Assembly (NCBI RefSeq): GCF_022701255.1
Contig: NZ_CP031705.1
Location: 6,324,001 to 6,388,000, forward strand
From: Microcoleus vaginatus HSN003
GTDB lineage: Bacteria > Cyanobacteriota > Cyanobacteriia > Cyanobacteriales > Microcoleaceae
Direction of reading: 5' to 3'
DNA: 64,000 nucleotides
Shown here: one piece after another, positions 16,975-25,909 of the stretch
How positions within the stretch are numbered: position 1 is the first letter of the stretch
Layout of the letters: every line of letters begins with the position of its first letter
Notes under the pieces: model-generated
What the model was told of the DNA's origin: nothing
Database searches by the model: none
The model's input: the letters and a program-made list of their open reading frames with translations, nothing else
Translations under genes and position numbers: made by a program

Positions 16975-19254
16975 TCACGCCATCCCCTTTTCTAAATACT
17001 CAGTAATCCCTTCTAGCCGCAGGAAATATACGCGGCCGGATTCTTCGCCTACCACAATTGTGATTTGATCTGGTGCAATAGCGCAAGAGGCGATCGAACT
17101 TTCACCCGTGAAACTAGCAATGATATTTCCATTCGACAAATCCCAGACTTTGAGGGTGTTGTCCGACGAACCAGAAATCGCCCGCTTGCCATCAGCAGTG
17201 ACGGCTACTATATTTACTGAGTTGCTGTGACCTTTGAGAGTAAACTGTTCTTTTCCAGTTGTTAAATCCCAGACTTTAAGAGTTTTGTCTCTTGAACCAG
17301 AAATTGCCCGCTTGCCATCAGCAGTAGTAGCGACTGCTATTACCGACTTGCTGTGACCCGTGAGGGTAAAAAGTTGCCTTGGAGCTATTGGATTTCTCCA
17401 AATAAAAGCTAACAATTCCCTCCTTATTTCTAAATCCCAGACTTTGATGGTGTTGTCCGACGAACCAGAAATGGCCCGCTTCCCATCAGTGGTGACGGCG
17501 ACTGCATATACCGAGTCCCTGTGACCTTTGAGCGTAAACAGTTCCTCTCGATTTACTAAATCCCAAACTTTGAGGGTGTCGTCCCGTGAACCAGAAATGG
17601 CCCGCTTCCCATCAGTGGTGACGGCGACTGCATATACCGAGTCCCTGTGACCTTGAAGCGTAAACAGTTCATCTTCAGTTTCTAAATCCCAAACTTTGAG
17701 GGTGTGGTTCCGTGAACTAGAAATCGCCCGCTTGCCATCAGTGGTGACGGCGACTGCACTTACTGATTCCCTGTGACCAGTGAGAGTAAACTGTTCATTT
17801 CCAGTTGTTAAATCCCAAACTTTGAGGGTGTTGTCCGACGAACCGGAAATCGCCCACTTCCCATCAGCAGTTACGGCTATTGCTTTTACCAAGTAGCTGC
17901 GATCTTTGATGCTAAACAGTTTATCTCCAGTTGTTAAATCCCAGACTTTGAGGCTGTTGTCCGACGAACCAGAAATCGCCCGCTTGCCATCAGCAGTTAC
18001 GGCTACTGCATTTATCGAGTCCATGTGACCTGTAAGCGTAAACAGTTCCTTTCCAGTTGTTAAATCCCAAACTTTGAGGAGGTTGTCCGACGAACCGGAA
18101 ATCGCCCGCTTGCCATCAGCAGTGACGGCTATTGCTTTTACCCTGTGACTTTTGATGGTAAACAGTTCCTTTCCAGTGGTTAGATCCCAGACTTTGAGGG
18201 TGTTGTCCGACGAACCAGAAATCGCCCGCTTCCCATCAGCAGTGACGGCGACTGCTTTTACCCAGTCGCTGTGACCTTTAAGAGTAAACAGTTCCTTTCC
18301 AGTGGTTAAATCCCAGACTTTTAGGGTGTTGTCCGACGAACCGGAAATCGCCCGCTTGTCATCAGCAGTGACGGCTACTACTTTTATCGAGTCGCTGTGA
18401 CCTGTAAGCGTAAACAGTTGATTTCCAGTGGTTAAATCCCAGACTTTTAGGGTGTTATCCGACGAACCAGAAATCGCCATTTTGCCATCAGCAGTGACGG
18501 CTACTGCTGTTACCCAGCTACTATGATCTTCAAGAGTAAACAGTTGATTTCCAGTGGTTAGATCCCAGACTTTTAGGGTGTTGTCCGACGAACCAGAAAT
18601 CGCCCGCTTCCCATCAGCAGTGACGGCTACTGCATATACTGAGTTGCTGTGACCTTTGAGAGTAAACTGTTCATTTCCAGTTGTTAAATCCCAAACTTTG
18701 AGGGTGTTGTCTCCTGAGCCAGAAATTGCTCGCTTGCCATCAGCAGTGACAGCGACTGCATTTACCGAGTTTCTGTGACCTTTGAGGGTGCGTAGTAGTC
18801 CCCTGCGAGGGGGAGTTAAACAGGGTGTCAAAGGACGCAACCAAGGTTCTGCTTTCCACTGCTTGGCTACTTCCAGCATGACCTGAATCTCGGGCATTTC
18901 AAAGTACAGTAAGCGCCCTAACAATTGTTCCGCCAGTTTGCTCCGATCTCGCTCCAAAATATCGGCTGACATCCACAGTACCCTTTGAATCAAGTTCAAG
19001 GCTTTTGCTGTTTCTGAGTTGTATTCTGAGTGAGTTACTGCTTCTGAATCGTCAAGCAAATTGAAATCATCAATAAGTGCCTGCACCCCAAATTCAGGAT
19101 GCTGAATCTTTGCCATCAGAAAGTCAAAATCTGTCAGTTTTTGATAATACTTTTCTAAATTACCTGACTTGACATGATTTGGCAGTAAGCTGCCCAGATA
19201 AGCACGTTGATAGAAAAGTGGTTTGGCCGCTAACTTGTCAGCAAATTCTCCCAT
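16975..19254 (-). CDS. WD40 repeat protein A (N-terminal helical domain plus about 14 blades)
   Basis: A 759-residue paralogue of protein B with the same start (MGEFADKLAAKPLFYQRAYL), the same helical domain to about residue 145, and about fourteen WD40 blades. One blade connection is irregular: near residue 590 the sequence LEIRRELLAFIWRNPIAPRQ replaces the usual short turn, adding about 18 residues. One other blade is shortened (IKSHRVKAIAV). The last blade is degenerate (FTGESSIASCAIAPD) and the tail is ITEYLEKGMA. The ATG comes one base after the stop of the upstream STAND ATPase gene, so the whole set was probably one operon before the IS insertions. Confidence 0.88.
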   Translation of the reverse strand: MGEFADKLAAKPLFYQRAYLGSLLPNHVKSGNLEKYYQKLTDFDFLMAKIQHPEFGVQALIDDFNLLDDSEAVTHSEYNSETAKALNLIQRVLWMSADILERDRSKLAEQLLGRLLYFEMPEIQVMLEVAKQWKAEPWLRPLTPCLTPPRRGLLRTLKGHRNSVNAVAVTADGKRAISGSGDNTLKVWDLTTGNEQFTLKGHSNSVYAVAVTADGKRAISGSSDNTLKVWDLTTGNQLFTLEDHSSWVTAVAVTADGKMAISGSSDNTLKVWDLTTGNQLFTLTGHSDSIKVVAVTADDKRAISGSSDNTLKVWDLTTGKELFTLKGHSDWVKAVAVTADGKRAISGSSDNTLKVWDLTTGKELFTIKSHRVKAIAVTADGKRAISGSSDNLLKVWDLTTGKELFTLTGHMDSINAVAVTADGKRAISGSSDNSLKVWDLTTGDKLFSIKDRSYLVKAIAVTADGKWAISGSSDNTLKVWDLTTGNEQFTLTGHRESVSAVAVTTDGKRAISSSRNHTLKVWDLETEDELFTLQGHRDSVYAVAVTTDGKRAISGSRDDTLKVWDLVNREELFTLKGHRDSVYAVAVTTDGKRAISGSSDNTIKVWDLEIRRELLAFIWRNPIAPRQLFTLTGHSKSVIAVATTADGKRAISGSRDKTLKVWDLTTGKEQFTLKGHSNSVNIVAVTADGKRAISGSSDNTLKVWDLSNGNIIASFTGESSIASCAIAPDQITIVVGEESGRVYFLRLEGITEYLEKGMA

Positions 19255-19255
19255 C

Positions 19256-19430
19256 TCACGCCATCCCTTGTTCTAAATACTCAGTAATCCGTTGATTTAC
19301 TTGCTTAAAAATTCTCCGCTTTGAATCCATCTCCCGTTTGGTTTTCAGAAAGTCAAGGAAACTAGCATGATAGATGGTGTAGCAGATTTCTCCGTCTACA
19401 TTCTGCTTTTTCAAATACTCAACCCACTTA
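19256..19430 (-). pseudogene. STAND ATPase 1, 3' part (cut off by IS630)
   Basis: The last 57 codons of the STAND ATPase gene that starts at 21850, plus the TA target copy at 19429-19430. Read from the IS boundary it encodes KWVEYLKKQNVDGEICYTIY, then HASFLDFLKTKRE and the tail QRITEYLEQGMA before TGA at 19256-19258. The homologous tail of the other ATPase (NWIEFLHKQEIGGEICYSLY) confirms the identity and frame. The stop is followed after one base by the ATG of WD40 gene A. Confidence 0.8.
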
Positions 19431-20607
19431 TAGCAATCCTAAATGATTTTCTATATCTAGAGCAATCCTAAATGATTTTCTGTGTGTAAGTATATTGACG
19501 TATTTTGGGGAAATCAAATTTATGTTCGTTAGTAAAAAACTCAAACAGAAACTTGACAATCTTAAAAGACCTACATAAATACCAATACTTTCTTAAAAAG
19601 TTTTTAGCTTGTAACCAAATATCTTCAACGGGGTTCTGTTGGGGAGCATTGGGAGCAAATAAAATACAAGTAATTGACCAATTAGCAGGTTCTTTGGCAG
19701 CATTAAGTTCTAATAAAAAGTCTCTAAATTCTCCATATTTATGATAACTAGCTCCATCCCAAATCAAGATAATTTTGCGATTTTTATATTTATCTTGTAA
19801 GTATTTTATGAATTTAACTGTTGATTTTCCATCACCAGATGGATGGCTCTGAACATGGAATTCTTTGCTTTGATAATTGAGTGCGCCAAAATAAGTTTGT
19901 CTATCTTTTTCATTGGTAATTGGGACTTCAATTCGGATTTGGGATTGACCCCAAACATAACCAGTCAGATCACCATGAAGTAGATGACATTCATCTAAAA
20001 ACAATACTATTATTTCCCCAGACTCTATACCAGCCTTGTTTTTAAATAAAATATCGTTAATTTCTTCCGTCTTTTTTTTTACCAGTTCTTTATCAAATTT
20101 AGGATTAATTTTTTGAGTTTTTTTCCAACTAATTTTCGCCCGGTCAAAAAGTTCATAGTAACTCTGTTTTGATTTATATATCACACCAAATTCTTGTTCT
20201 AAATAAGTAACTAGCTCATCTAAATTCCAATATTCTTTATTTCTTAACCACTCGATTACTTCAGTATTTTGTAGAGCTGTTAAATACCCTTTTGACCCTT
20301 TATGTCCTAGTTTGATTCCGGCGATGCCTTTGGTTTTAAATTGTTTTTTCCAATAACCAATAAAAAAATTACTTACACCTAAAATTTTGCTGATCTCATG
20401 GTAGATATTACCTGAGAGCGCCATCCTTACAGCTATTGCTCGTTTTAGTTCTCTGGCATCTATATCGCTTTTAATGAAAGATTCTAAACAATCTATTTCT
20501 TTTTGCCTATCTTTTTGTTGCAGGTGTAAGTTATTCATTTTTTTATGGTCACGATCGAGTATTGCATATAATTGTATCACAATCATGATAATGATTTAGG
20601 ATTGCTA
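19431..20607 (-). mobile_element. IS630/Tc1-mariner type insertion sequence, complete, TA target
   Basis: A 1177-bp element with inverted ends TAGCAATCCTAAAT on the left and its complement at the right end, flanked by TA at 19429-19430 and 20608-20609 as expected for this group. It contains an intact transposase on the minus strand. The left end is duplicated: AGCAATCCTAAATGATTTTC occurs at 19432 and again at 19461. Excising the element with one TA restores VLED-KWVEYL in the STAND ATPase (472 codons in total including the stop). Confidence 0.92.
19468..20538 (-). CDS. IS630-family transposase (DDE)
   Basis: A 356-residue transposase from the ATG at 20538 (MNNLHLQQKDRQ); the frame stays open to 20586. 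An N-terminal HTH region (ISKILGVSNFFIGYWKKQF) recognises the ends. The catalytic triad is Asp in VLFLDECHLLHGD, Asp in ILIWDGASYH, and Glu in APNAPQQNPVEDIWLQAK. No disruptions are visible. The stop codon lies inside the inner copy of the duplicated left end. It is read in the same direction as the ATPase gene it interrupts. Confidence 0.92.
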   Translation of the reverse strand: MNNLHLQQKDRQKEIDCLESFIKSDIDARELKRAIAVRMALSGNIYHEISKILGVSNFFIGYWKKQFKTKGIAGIKLGHKGSKGYLTALQNTEVIEWLRNKEYWNLDELVTYLEQEFGVIYKSKQSYYELFDRAKISWKKTQKINPKFDKELVKKKTEEINDILFKNKAGIESGEIIVLFLDECHLLHGDLTGYVWGQSQIRIEVPITNEKDRQTYFGALNYQSKEFHVQSHPSGDGKSTVKFIKYLQDKYKNRKIILIWDGASYHKYGEFRDFLLELNAAKEPANWSITCILFAPNAPQQNPVEDIWLQAKNFLRKYWYLCRSFKIVKFLFEFFTNEHKFDFPKIRQYTYTQKII

Positions 20608-21850
20608 TATCTTCTAAAACCTTTCCCACATCGCATTCATCCACCTTGGCAATTCCAGCAATCATCTCGCAGGGAATCGGCGTGCCAATCTCTAGTAAAA
20701 TATACAAGACATTCTCCATCAATTGCCCTGGCTTAGCTTCCATCCCCATCTTTACCCAATGGCTTTGATAATACTCTAGCAACCCGTCTGGCAATTGCTT
20801 TAAACTCAAGTCATTGTAAACGCCTTTAGCAATTGCCGGCAAAACATACCGCAAATACATAAAATTATTTTCGCTCTTGTTTGCCACTTGTTCGACAAAA
20901 GTTTTATCGGGAATGTTGCGGGTTTTAATCCAGTTCCTCAGTCCATTTTTATGGTCAGAATCGGTATTTATAACAAAGCGAATATATTCTTTGATATCAT
21001 CCTGATTGAAATTAGCATACTGGCTATCTCTTAAATCTAACTCTTCTTCGGGAACATCTACTAACAATCGCTTTTTATCGAGGCTATAGGGTCGCCGAGT
21101 CAGCAGAAAATATACGTTAGTGGGCAGATTCTTCGGTAAATGTAAAAGATTTCCTCCCGGTTCTTGTTCGACTTCATCCAGTGCATCAACTGCAATTACC
21201 AAACGTTCAGTACCAGTGAGTTTTGCCGCCGCCTTTGCCAGTAAAGTTGGTAAATCGGCGTCTTCTGAATTTGGCAATTGATAGCGGTCAATTAATTGCC
21301 GGCGAATGCTCTTCAAAAACAATTCTGGTCTGTTGCGACGTTCGACGAGAATATTGAAATAGCAGGGAGATTTATGTTCCCAGACGTATTTGGCAACGAT
21401 CGAGCTTTTGCCCATTCCCGCATCCCCGATGATTGTAAAATAACCGTGAGGGTTGTCGGTGATAAATTGCTGAAACGTCTCAAAAACAAATTGGCGTCCG
21501 CAAAACCTCCGAATTTTTTCTTCTATTAACGATAGAAATTCTTCAGGGTAGGGGGCAACTACTGGGTCTGGTTTTGGATAATACTTCTGTTTTAATTTTA
21601 TAAACAATATATCCAATTTGCCGGCACCGTTTTGGTCAAGAAGTTGAGGAAAAGTATTTCCAAATTTCTTGTAAATCACTCCCAGCCGCTGTTTTACAGT
21701 AGCTTCTGATATTCTTAATTCTAGTGAAAGCTCTACCTGATTGCGGGGTGCTCTTTCAGGAGAGAAGAGTGCTGCTAATAATGTTTCTTTTTGTTCCATC
21801 GATAATCCATGTGTCCCAGATTCCCCTCTAAGGAATTCTTGCCAATCCAT
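20608..21850 (-). pseudogene. STAND/NACHT-like ATPase 1 with N-terminal HTH, 5' part (IS630-interrupted)
   Basis: The first 414 codons of a protein of 471 residues before disruption. Residues 1-90 resemble an HTH: NQVELSLELRISEATVKQRL at 37-56, followed by GVIYKKFGN, as seen at the start of many cyanobacterial NACHT and vWA-MoxR-associated proteins. The STAND ATPase follows with RRFCGRQF, Walker A GDAGMGKS (142-149) and Walker B LVIAVDALDEVEQ (217-229). Helical and winged-helix parts come next, up to the IS at VGKVLED. As it stands, translation runs through the IS end and stops at 20549, giving a 433-residue product without the natural tail. It is the first gene of the STAND-WD40 array. Confidence 0.83.
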
Positions 21851-22143: not shown

Positions 22144-22770
22144 ATGAATCTTAACTTATTCGGCAACTCACACCCAGACGAAGATTATAGCAAAATGGAT
22201 GAAATCCCATCACTTGGGATAGGTATAAAAATTATTAGCCAAATTGCCGATGAGCTTAGTTATACCCACACTTCTGACCGTCGAAACTGTCTGTTAATTG
22301 TAAAATATTTTCAGCCTGTACTACCTCACCCTAGCACTCAAGCTGATTGTTTTAAGCGAGCGACCGATACTTTAAACATTTTCAACTGGCTGAAAGAGCA
22401 AAAAACTAGCCAATTCGATCGAATTTCTAACCAGCCACTGCAAAAAATTACTCTGCAACTTAATAGTGATATTGCCACAGTCACTCAAGTTTTATGGTGG
22501 GTGGAACAGTTAGAGAATCTACCACTTCCCGAAGAAGTTTTGCAGCTTTGTAAACTTGCGACGGTCGAGGGGTTTATTAATGCTATTCACCACCACAAAA
22601 ATCTGCCATCAAACACTCCTATTGATCTGGCGATCGCAGTTTTTAACGAACGCATAGAAATTCAAATTTGGGATTGGGGAAAGCCTCTTAATTTCCCAAG
22701 CAAAGTTAAAAGTCAACAATCGCCAGCAAAAGAGCCGTTCGGTTTAAAAGAGCTGGAATTTATGTTTTAG
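22144..22770 (+). CDS. RsbW-like GHKL protein with permuted motif order (paralogue 1)
   Basis: A 208-residue protein starting at the ATG at 22144, with GGAGG at 22130-22134 as ribosome-binding site. Cyanobacterial anti-sigma kinases of the RsbW/SpoIIAB type normally run N box, G1 box, G2 box, then a final strand ending in RNCLLIVK. Here the G2-to-end block comes first (SLGIGIKIISQIADELSYTH and RRNCLLIVKYFQP, residues 23-58). A linker of about 45 residues follows, then the N-terminal half: QVLWWVEQLENLPLP, N box EGFINAIHHH (142-151) and G1 IWDWGKPLN (175-183), and the protein ends. This order suggests a circularly permuted ATPase fold. It may bind a sigma or anti-sigma-antagonist-type partner; that is inference. 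It is not recognised as a named gene. Confidence 0.75.
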   Translation: MNLNLFGNSHPDEDYSKMDEIPSLGIGIKIISQIADELSYTHTSDRRNCLLIVKYFQPVLPHPSTQADCFKRATDTLNIFNWLKEQKTSQFDRISNQPLQKITLQLNSDIATVTQVLWWVEQLENLPLPEEVLQLCKLATVEGFINAIHHHKNLPSNTPIDLAIAVFNERIEIQIWDWGKPLNFPSKVKSQQSPAKEPFGLKELEFMF

Positions 22771-22975
22771 CAAAGATGACTCTATCTGCAAATCATTCTT
22801 TAATTAGTTCTGCCTGACTAGGGCCGATAGGTTTTAATCTACTGCCCGATTTGCTCTAAAAATCATGGGCGATCGCAAATTAAAACTCACCTTGTGTACC
22901 CTACCTTCTCCCTTTTTGCTTCAGTAGGATATCTGTACAAACAAAAAACCTCAATATTTAGCAGAGAAAACCGTT

Positions 22976-23605
22976 ATGAACTCTAACTTAGAAAATTCGC
23001 ACCGTGACGAAGATTTTAGCGAAATCGAGGAAATAGGCAAGATAGGTATAAAACTTATTGGCAAAATTGCCGATGAGCTAAGTTATACCCGCACGTCTGC
23101 CGGTCGAAACTGTCTGTTAATTGTAAAATATTTTCAGCCCGGTCTAGTAGCACCCCAACCTAGCACTGAAGCTAGTATTTTTAAGCGTGCGATCGACGTT
23201 TTACACAGCTTTAACTGGCTTCAAGAGCAACGAAATCCCCCATCCGAGTCAAGTTATAACCAGCCACTTCACAAATTTAAGCTTCAAGTAAATAGCGATC
23301 TCCAGGCCGTTACTCAAGTTTTATGGTGGGTCGAGCAGTTAGAGCTTCTACCCATTCCCGAACCAGTTTTGCAGCTTTGTAAACTTGCTGCGATCGAGGG
23401 TTTTGCCCATGCTGTTCGCCACGCCCACACAAATCGGTCATTGGAAACTCCGAAAATAGAACTGGCGATCGCAGTATTTAACAAACGCCTAGAGATCGAA
23501 ATATGGGATTGGGGCAAGCCTTTTGACCTCAAGACCAAGCTGAAAGAAGAATTGCCGGAAAAAACTCTGTTTAGTTGGAACGACCTGGCCTTTACTCTTC
23601 ACTAA
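22976..23605 (+). CDS. RsbW-like GHKL protein with permuted motif order (paralogue 2)
   Basis: A 209-residue paralogue of the preceding gene, 205 bp downstream. It has the same layout: GIKLIGKIADELSYTRTSAG and RNCLLIVKYFQPG at the N terminus, then QVLWWVEQLELLPIP, the N-box region EGFAHAVRHAH, and WDWGKPFDL near the C terminus. The key Asn of the N box, which binds Mg-ATP in this family, is His here, and the G2 glycines are reduced. Nucleotide binding may therefore be weak or lost, making this a possible regulatory partner of paralogue 1. The response-regulator gene follows 54 bp downstream on the same strand, so the three may form an operon. Confidence 0.75.
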   Translation: MNSNLENSHRDEDFSEIEEIGKIGIKLIGKIADELSYTRTSAGRNCLLIVKYFQPGLVAPQPSTEASIFKRAIDVLHSFNWLQEQRNPPSESSYNQPLHKFKLQVNSDLQAVTQVLWWVEQLELLPIPEPVLQLCKLAAIEGFAHAVRHAHTNRSLETPKIELAIAVFNKRLEIEIWDWGKPFDLKTKLKEELPEKTLFSWNDLAFTLH

Positions 23606-23659
23606 AGCTGTTCGGAAATTGCTAGGTTTCCCTTGACAACAGAAAGGAAGTTTTTTGTG

Positions 23660-24111
23660 ATGATTACTGATACTACTCCCAAGATTCTCGTTGTGGATGA
23701 TGACCCCTCCATCCGCACTCTAGTTCATCGTTTTTTAACTCAGAAATATCAAGTAGATTCGGCAGCCGATGGCGAGACGGCTTTAGAATTGTTTGATAAA
23801 TTCAAGCCACTGCTAGTAGTTCTCGATTGGAATTTACCAGATACTACAGGTTATCACCTCTGCCAGGAAATGCAGCGCCGTACTAATGTTTTTGTGGTAA
23901 TGCTAAGCAGCCGCACAGACGAAGCTGATAAACTTAAAGTCCTGTCCGCCGGTGCTGATGACTATATCTGCAAACCCTTTGGTTTGGCCGTGTTGGCAAT
24001 TCGTATAGAAGTTGTGTTGAGACGCATGAGGCCTGTGACTCCATCACGTATTGTAGTCGATCAATTCGCGATCGATTCAGCGCGTCGGGAAGCAACACTC
24101 AACGATCGCAT
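23660..24111 (+). pseudogene. OmpR-type response regulator, 5' part (receiver domain; IS66-interrupted)
   Basis: The receiver domain of a response regulator from the ATG at 23660. The acidic pocket is VVDDDPS (11-17), the likely phospho-acceptor is Asp56 in LLVVLDWNLPD and the conserved Lys105 is in DYICKPFG. The linker continues to LNDR, where the IS66 element enters; in place the frame ends within a few bases in a TAA-type stop at 24115. Alone this part would still make a free-standing receiver domain. The rest, a winged-helix DNA-binding domain, resumes at 25634. Bases 24104-24111 are one copy of the target duplication. Confidence 0.88.
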
Positions 24112-25633
24112 GTAAGGATTCAGGTAAAAAATAGTTCATTGAGAGCGAAAAATATGGTGTAGTCAGATGAGCGAAAAGCCAGAGTTATCAGCAGCACTAA
24201 AATTAGAAATAGTTGACCAGTTGAGCCGTGAGGAGCTGGTCAAAATTGTGCTAACCCAACAGAAGCTGATTGAAAAATTACAACAAGAGCTCGAAAAGCT
24301 CAAAGAGAGACAGCCCAGCAATAGCAAAACATCATCGAAACCCCCATCAAGCGATCTCATACAGAAATCAGAGCTCGCCAAAGTTGATAACTTAAAAGAG
24401 TCAGACCCAGAGCCCAAGCGTAAACCAGGAGGACAGCCAGGACATATCGGCAAAACCCGAAAAGGATTTGGACGAGTGGATAGATATCAAATCAGCACTC
24501 CTGACTCTTGTGAGCATTGTGGTAGCAGAGAATTAAGTGAGGCGATTGGTTATAGCAAGCAGCAAGTAGCGTGTTTAGCAGCCTTACCAATTGAAGTAGT
24601 GGAATATCAACGAGTCAAATGTCAATGCCTAGAATGTGGAGCAATGGTGATGGGTTCACCAGCATCCGGGATAGTTCCAGGACAAGACTTAAGCATCGAC
24701 CTACAAGCATTATTGGTATGGCTAGGTAATTATGGGCACATATCCTACGAAAAGCAACAAGAGTTCCTGCGCGAACTAGGTGGAATCGAAATAGGGATAG
24801 GGACATTACAAGCGACAAATGCGCGGGTAGCCGATGCTGTAAAGTCTGCCGTTGAAGCCTTATGGAAATGGGCACCATTACAAGCCAACGTCCATGTCGA
24901 TGAAACCCCTTGGTGTGTCAAGGGAGTCAAAGAATGGTTGTGGACAGCTACGGGTCAAGATTTTTGCCTGTTTCATGCTGCGGATACTCGGAGTAGAGCC
25001 GAATTAGAGACGATGCTGGGCCAGGAATTTGCGCTCAGTGTTGAGCTCTGATGATTTTAGCGTCTACAACGGTGTGATTGTGGGAGCGCAACAAAAATGT
25101 TTAGCCCATCTACGGCGACATTTTAAGAAAGTTCTGCTTCTTAGTTACGGTAACAATACAGTCGTCGCCTCTGCGTTCTTGGAATTAATTGATGAGGCAT
25201 TTCGACAACATCGAAAATGGCGGGAACACCCTCAAGAGCTTGATTATCAGACTTGGGCGAGGGACTTTAAGACCAGGTTGGCAGAATTGTTAAATACTTG
25301 GCAAGGTCATGTTGGTCATGCTGCTGGACTGTTATTGCGCTCGTTGCGTGAGAAAGCACATCAATGGTGGTACTTTTTAGACCATCCTTCCATTCCTCCT
25401 GATAATAATTTGGCAGAACGTTCTCTCCGATTAGCAGTGACGAAGCGTAAGGTATCTGGGGGCTCCCGGTCAATGTCTCGGTTTGAACAAACTGCTGATT
25501 TGTTATCTGTGATTCAGACTTGTCGGTTTCAGGGTAAAAGCGCAATGGCTTTTTTCCGTGATGCTATATTTGCCCATTCTTGTAACTTTTTCATGCCTTC
25601 TCTTATTCCCCAATCAAAGACCTGAATCCTTAC
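24112..25633 (+). mobile_element. IS66-family insertion sequence, 8-bp target duplication
   Basis: A 1522-bp element with perfect 14-bp terminal inverted repeats beginning GTAAGGATTCAGGT; the GTAA end is characteristic of IS66. It is flanked by direct repeats GATCGCAT at 24104-24111 and 25634-25641, and IS66 elements make 8-bp duplications. It carries only a tnpC-type transposase, as in the short single-gene branch, and that gene is frameshifted. Excision with one repeat restores the response regulator as LNDR-IIKLTALEF (240 codons including the stop). Confidence 0.93.
24167..25625 (+). pseudogene. IS66-family transposase, frameshifted
   Basis: Two overlapping frames, 24167-25051 and the following frame to 25625, together encode one IS66 TnpC-type transposase. 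The first has a leucine-zipper start, the linker SKTSSKPPSSD, the zinc-finger-like CEHCGSRE and CQCLECG, and the first catalytic Asp in HVDETPW. The second has the next Asp in VLSSDDFSVYNG and the Glu in DNNLAERSLR. The break is near 25030-25036, where one extra base (reading GCGCTCAG) moves the frame. Removing one C gives QEFASVLSSDDF, close to the family consensus. There is no slippery run, so I read this as an inactivating mutation rather than programmed frameshifting. Confidence 0.88.
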
Positions 25634-25909
25634 GATCGCATTATCAAGTTAACAGCCTTGGAATTTAAGATATTGTATTTTTTGGCAAGTCATTCTGGTC
25701 AATCTTGGAGTCGCCAACAGCTAATCGAAAAAATTTGGGGTTGGAACTGCAACGACACAGGAGAAGAGAACGTTGTTAGCGTACATATCGGTCAGATTCG
25801 CAAGAAAATGATTCAAGCTGATGCTACTGGGTCGCAGTTTATTAAAACTATTTGGGGTTACGGTTACAGGTTCGATCCGCCCTCGTGCACTGCAATGGCA
25901 ATTTCCTAA
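25634..25909 (+). pseudogene. OmpR-type response regulator, 3' part (winged-helix DNA-binding domain)
   Basis: This is the second half of the response regulator that starts at 23660. It encodes an OmpR/PhoB winged helix: IKLTALEFKILYFLASHSGQ, the recognition region SRQQLIEKIWG, then VSVHIGQIRKKM and IKTIWGYGYRFDPP. No start with a ribosome-binding site is present, so it is probably not made on its own. The intact protein would have had 239 residues, normal for the family. It followed the two GHKL paralogues and may have been their output, but that is inference from order only. Confidence 0.85.

Follow-up and report, generated by a model that had tools for sequence, protein, structure and literature searches.

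Two RsbW-like genes with exchanged sequence blocks

A stretch of 64,000 nucleotides from the Microcoleus vaginatus HSN003 genome (contig NZ_CP031705.1; this whole stretch is hereafter called the window) includes two neighbouring genes, W1 and W2, each an intact open reading frame (ORF) for an RsbW-like protein of the GHKL (Bergerat) group (Table 1). The two proteins are 61% identical by protein alignment, and both exceeded the gathering cut-off of 27.4 bits for Pfam HATPase_c_2 (PF13581), with 52.4 bits for W1 and 48.1 bits for W2, in agreement with the initial annotation of a pair of RsbW-like GHKL genes between 22144 and 23605. The NCBIfam equivalog cut-offs for RsbW were missed (24.3/30.6 against 145 bits for NF003144; 15.8/22.3 against 155 for TIGR01924). 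The best HATPase_c_2 stretch was located in the C-terminal half of each protein (residues 108-187 of W1, ending at profile position 83 of 127; residues 107-195 of W2, ending at position 91 of 127), and a second stretch, recorded without its location, was detected in each at the loose E-value of 1.

Table 1. Positions of the genes and blocks described in the text, in the window unless a record name is given. Residue numbers of the W1 and W2 blocks were converted from stop-to-stop frames; i-E, independent E-value.
Feature	Position	Strand	Remarks
W1, permuted RsbW-like protein, 208 aa	22144..22770	+	intact ORF; ATG 22144, GGAGG upstream
W1 C block (G2 box, helix, last two strands), now N-terminal, residues 17-56	22192..22311	+	canonical profile 99-138, i-E 7e-11
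W1 linker, old C-terminus to old N-terminus, residues 57-98	22312..22437	+	gap between profile pieces
W1 N block (first strand, N box EGFINAIHH, G1 WDWGKP), now C-terminal, residues 99-195	22438..22728	+	canonical profile 3-100, i-E 3e-27
W2, permuted RsbW-like protein, 209 aa	22976..23605	+	intact ORF, ATG 22976
W2 C block, residues 15-53	23018..23134	+	canonical profile 100-138, i-E 7e-10
W2 linker, residues 54-97	23135..23266	+	gap between profile pieces; mean predicted local distance difference test score (pLDDT) per ten residues 46-69
W2 N block (N-box Asn to His; G1), residues 98-195	23267..23560	+	canonical profile 3-99, i-E 2e-30
OmpR-type response regulator behind W2, split by IS66 transposase	23633..25909 (REC 23633-24115; DNA-binding 25658-25909)	+	Pfam Response_reg, DDE_Tnp_IS66, Trans_reg_C
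C-N-C proteins	L138:5062-5748, P0250, P0253, P0254, P0255		two G2 blocks, one frame

The block that is C-terminal in ordinary relatives was named the C block and the one that is N-terminal there the N block, and one profile was built for each. By these block profiles a total of 411 frames were classified, including 311 with the order C-N, 95 with the ordinary order N-C and five with the order C-N-C. A canonical profile built from 69 ordinary relatives was then applied to 45 C-N representatives, and in all 45 it matched in two swapped pieces, the part that starts at about position 98-100 lying at the N-terminus and the part spanning positions of about 3 to about 100 lying at the C-terminus. The linear order of first strand, N box, G1, lid, G2 and last strands was kept neither in W1 and W2 nor in any of the representatives. 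Since the two profile pieces are complementary, the order represents a circular permutation, which is real for W1 and W2 at the level of sequence, and the motif order first read from the two genes, with the G2-to-end block leading and the N box and G1 at the end, was thereby confirmed. Two pieces of W2 also matched a canonical paralogue of the same genome (1733122-1733538) in opposite order (E 8e-19 and 4e-6).

The chain is broken in the ATP lid, which separates G1 from G2. Both boxes were found by pattern in 86 of the 95 ordinary frames, and in these the lid had a median length of 20 residues (18-25); it is described as a flexible loop in RsbW/SpoIIAB relatives (PMC10120452). The median length of the linker between the exchanged blocks was 40 residues, and that of W2 includes a predicted helix; only 11 residues, as delimited by the profiles, separate the blocks of the permutants P0248 and P0249. 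Both blocks are under purifying selection and the linkers are little constrained (median dN/dS, the ratio of nonsynonymous to synonymous rates, 0.66-0.89).

Absence of a second G2 block had been noted for both genes at the outset, and none was detected within 450 bases behind the N block of W1 or W2 except the N-terminal block of W2 itself. For 57 unique rearranged frames, the 450 bases that follow the N block were searched for a decayed second G2 block, and only two matches had E<0.01: this block of W2, downstream of W1, and, in a C-N-C gene, the second C block, which is intact; among shuffled controls (five per stretch), none fell below E 0.44. Given that level, weaker matches in L107 (E 2.8) and L109 (E 5.5) were rejected as worthless. 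Separately, the tail FESEGLI of Kamptonema-type proteins resembles the start of G2.

Spread of the exchanged order among genomes

The genome that contains the window carries, in addition to ordinary paralogues, a total of four permuted genes: W1, W2, 4965818-4966378 and 3744632-3745279. Two protein searches gave 507 and 699 relatives, and all 240 matches listed (120 each) were permuted, three of them being fragments that stop before the N box. In a third protein search, 26 of 82 proteins were rearranged, four of these with the order C-N-C, and 56 were ordinary. Counted by genome, the permuted order was present in 27 of 29 members of the genus, in 3/3 and 1/1 of two further genera, and in 31 of the 61 genomes of the family, so the same order does recur in other genomes.

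Among 80 named loci, 28 were C-N, one C-N-C, 49 N-C only and two N block only; the permuted order occurs in named records of, among others, Microcoleus, Tychonema, Kamptonema, Lyngbya and a Coleofasciculus metagenome-assembled genome (MAG), to which Limnoraphis and Capilliphycus are added by protein name. The order-wide search (388 genomes) added four C-N genomes and one C-N-C genome, belonging to three other families, and the class-wide search (291 genomes) gave, among the matches listed, full-length permuted proteins only in three genomes of the window's own genus. In the class-wide set, G172 and G025 were counted as canonical, reaching the front part of the query only via read-through of stops. 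Absence of the permuted order outside the detected groups is not proven by the class and order searches, in which the best matches were listed and few candidates scored per genome. One MAG named Microcoleus vaginatus WJT46-NPBG5 (L177, G414) is placed, in the genome set analysed, in a family other than that of the window's genome, and its name is probably wrong.

These counts bear on the suspicion that W1 and W2 are an artefact, that is, frameshifted or misassembled fragments of adjacent canonical genes. Tandem, unfused ordinary rsbW-like genes about 110-390 bp apart do occur in relatives (L095, L096, L097 and L098, of which L228 and L220 are the named records of L095 and L097), providing material for such an error; a REC-PP2C (RsbU-like) gene lies beside three of these four pairs, as read by eye from the ORFs, and the pairs are not near the permuted rows in the tree described below. 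However, all 240 listed matches and the 28 named C-N loci share the order, the blocks are under purifying selection, and a single complete genome has four copies. This leaves virtually no chance for the artefact, which is untenable, and the same holds for the joining of partial genes by frameshift, raised as a doubt in the initial annotation.

Predicted fold and activity

The AlphaFold2 model of W2 reached a pLDDT of 70 and a predicted template modelling score (pTM) of 0.70, and the AlphaFold monomer of the short natural permutant P0249 formed one compact chain with pTM of 0.82. When both models were compared by VIA-align, the top PDB rows were of the RsbW/SpoIIAB/UsfX type, with the N block matching SpoIIAB. 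Since proteins of the RsbW/SpoIIAB family function as dimers, and a linker with a median of 40 residues could reach a neighbouring chain, the C block of one chain might instead complete the sheet of the other in a strand-swapped dimer. This arrangement appears improbable in view of the 11-residue interval in P0248 and P0249 and the confident monomer model of the latter, and would itself still mean a permuted gene.

The N-box Glu, the G1 Asp and the G1 Gly are invariant in all 126 aligned permuted proteins, and the N-box Asn is kept in 109 of the 126, being replaced by His in 15, W2 included, and by Leu in two. W1 retains all four residues. Between its two glycines the G2 box has R in 56 of the 69 canonical representatives; among the 45 permuted representatives this position is R in 11 and I in 25. 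The substitutions of the N-box Asn and of the R in G2, together with the cut of the lid, favour the view that the kinase reaction has been lost and the proteins are kept as non-catalytic, protein-binding adaptors. As an explanation for the group this is doubtful, given the invariance of the other motif residues, the Asn in most members, the constraint on both blocks, and the L004-type paralogue of the same genome, in which Asn, G1 and GGRG are all kept. For W2 itself, which lacks the Asn, the motifs point to a weak or dead kinase that probably works as a binding partner. As a group, the permuted proteins probably still represent a partner-switching Ser/Thr kinase or anti-sigma module.

Origin, neighbouring genes and known systems

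Five C-N-C proteins were identified (Table 1), one in Oscillatoria sp. SIO1A7 and four others of probably metagenomic source. Permutation by duplication, for which a review names DNA methyltransferases and saposin/swaposin (PMC3320104), predicts partly truncated intermediates, and the C-N-C proteins correspond to the half-truncated form predicted by that model as described there. When pooled, their first C block is closer to the blocks of C-N proteins than to ordinary ones (0.54 versus 0.43), and their second shows no preference (0.46 versus 0.45). In three genomes of another family, C-N genes are found at the location that the C-N-C gene has in SIO1A7, in each case convergent with the gene for an AMP-binding ligase (Pfam), presumably menE-like. 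In a tree of the N block (95 columns), 44 of 45 C-N rows, the five C-N-C rows and the N-C row P0258 formed one group. This fits a single origin of the rearranged proteins, which 95 columns do not prove.

Based on these observations, W1 and W2 are probably natural permuted Bergerat proteins of the RsbW/SpoIIAB type that arose by duplication through a C-N-C form and fold as one domain. The ancestral gene would have undergone tandem duplication and fusion, followed by loss of the N-terminal part from the first copy and of the C-terminal part from the second, by way of the C-N-C form still extant. A loose linker would then tie the old C-terminus to the old N-terminus, the new chain ends falling in the ATP lid, in the interval between G1 and G2. 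Such a chain should refold, as the models suggest, into one ordinary Bergerat domain, its lid consisting of two free tails where ordinary relatives have a closed loop, and may take part in partner switching with STAS or sigma partners. As a tentative extension, the lid tails might be captured by the partners, in which case nucleotide retention would be set by protein binding and the proteins would constitute a new class of switch kinases, diversified in filamentous cyanobacteria.

A number of results weigh against this account. In a doubled-sequence test the profile match reached at least 90% in only 17 of 45 representatives. The first C block of SIO1A7 gave a tie, with 0.60 to a canonical block and 0.60 to the best C-N block. 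No canonical gene was found beside the ligase in the other 27 of the 30 loci inspected, nor a fused N-C-N-C ancestor among the 411 classified frames or the 80 named loci. The rearranged clade has a support of only 92/77; the C-N row P0256 is unplaced, near this clade, and P0258 nests among the C-N-C rows, having probably lost its first block. The structure aligners are sequential; their matches comprised the N block plus the tail that follows it and did not cover the docking of the C block. With Foldseek there was no match at E≤0.001. Kinase activity, nucleotide binding, partners and oligomeric state are all predicted properties.

Behind W2, an IS66 transposase interrupts the gene for an OmpR-type response regulator; at this locus the relatives L067 and L068 (G326 and G324) have the regulator gene in one piece. 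Among 19 loci of the W/L003 type, as read from ORF lists, the gene behind the permuted one was an intact OmpR-type regulator in six, broken or partial in eight and none in five. A regulator follows the permuted gene in many loci, which hints at a connection with two-component signalling; that it is broken or missing in 13 of the 19 weakens this connection. At eight loci (L069, L071, L073-L077 and L079) the regulator is frameshifted or truncated and the permuted gene intact. Since the kinase-like gene outlives the regulator, the latter is unlikely to be its sole partner. In the L003 type, genes for an extracytoplasmic function (ECF) sigma factor and a zf-HC2 anti-sigma factor are located close to the permuted gene; at L104:6329-11619 and L106:2738-8139 a NACHT gene lies between them and the permuted gene. 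The genome has STAS (RsbV-like) genes at 13 places, all of them outside the window. Elsewhere in the window (16975-21850), NACHT-type and WD40-repeat genes that are adjacent in the relative L141 are parted by an inserted ORF (19468-20586), presumably transposase-like.

The Bergerat fold is the basis of gyrase, Hsp90, MutL, histidine kinases and anti-sigma kinases. Unlike the known cases of permutation by duplication, no permuted example of a GHKL, Bergerat, HATPase, RsbW, anti-sigma or histidine-kinase ATPase was found in the open-licence literature, and no PDB sequence matched across both blocks, so that the proposal of a new architecture holds within this scope; a paper on SpoIIE names a permuted GTPase only (PMC3517971). 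Since the permutant is conserved, under selection and accompanied by a C-N-C intermediate, the C-N, C-N-C and N-C proteins of related bacteria provide a comparison set for two questions, namely how such a rearrangement proceeds via a working intermediate and what purpose a closed lid serves.

The canonical paralogues of the same genome at 1733137-1733457 and 1990537-1990917 share 45-55% identity with W2 in the matched pieces but, unlike W1 and W2, have the order N-G1-G2 and cover the Pfam profile to position 127. W1 and W2 are similar to the anti-sigma Ser kinases RsbW, SpoIIAB and UsfX in both blocks, in the N-box Glu and in the Asp-x-Gly of G1, but differ from them in that the blocks are swapped, both chain termini fall in the ATP lid and an extra linker is present. 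The novelty is a new connection of ordinary building blocks, together with a living intermediate.
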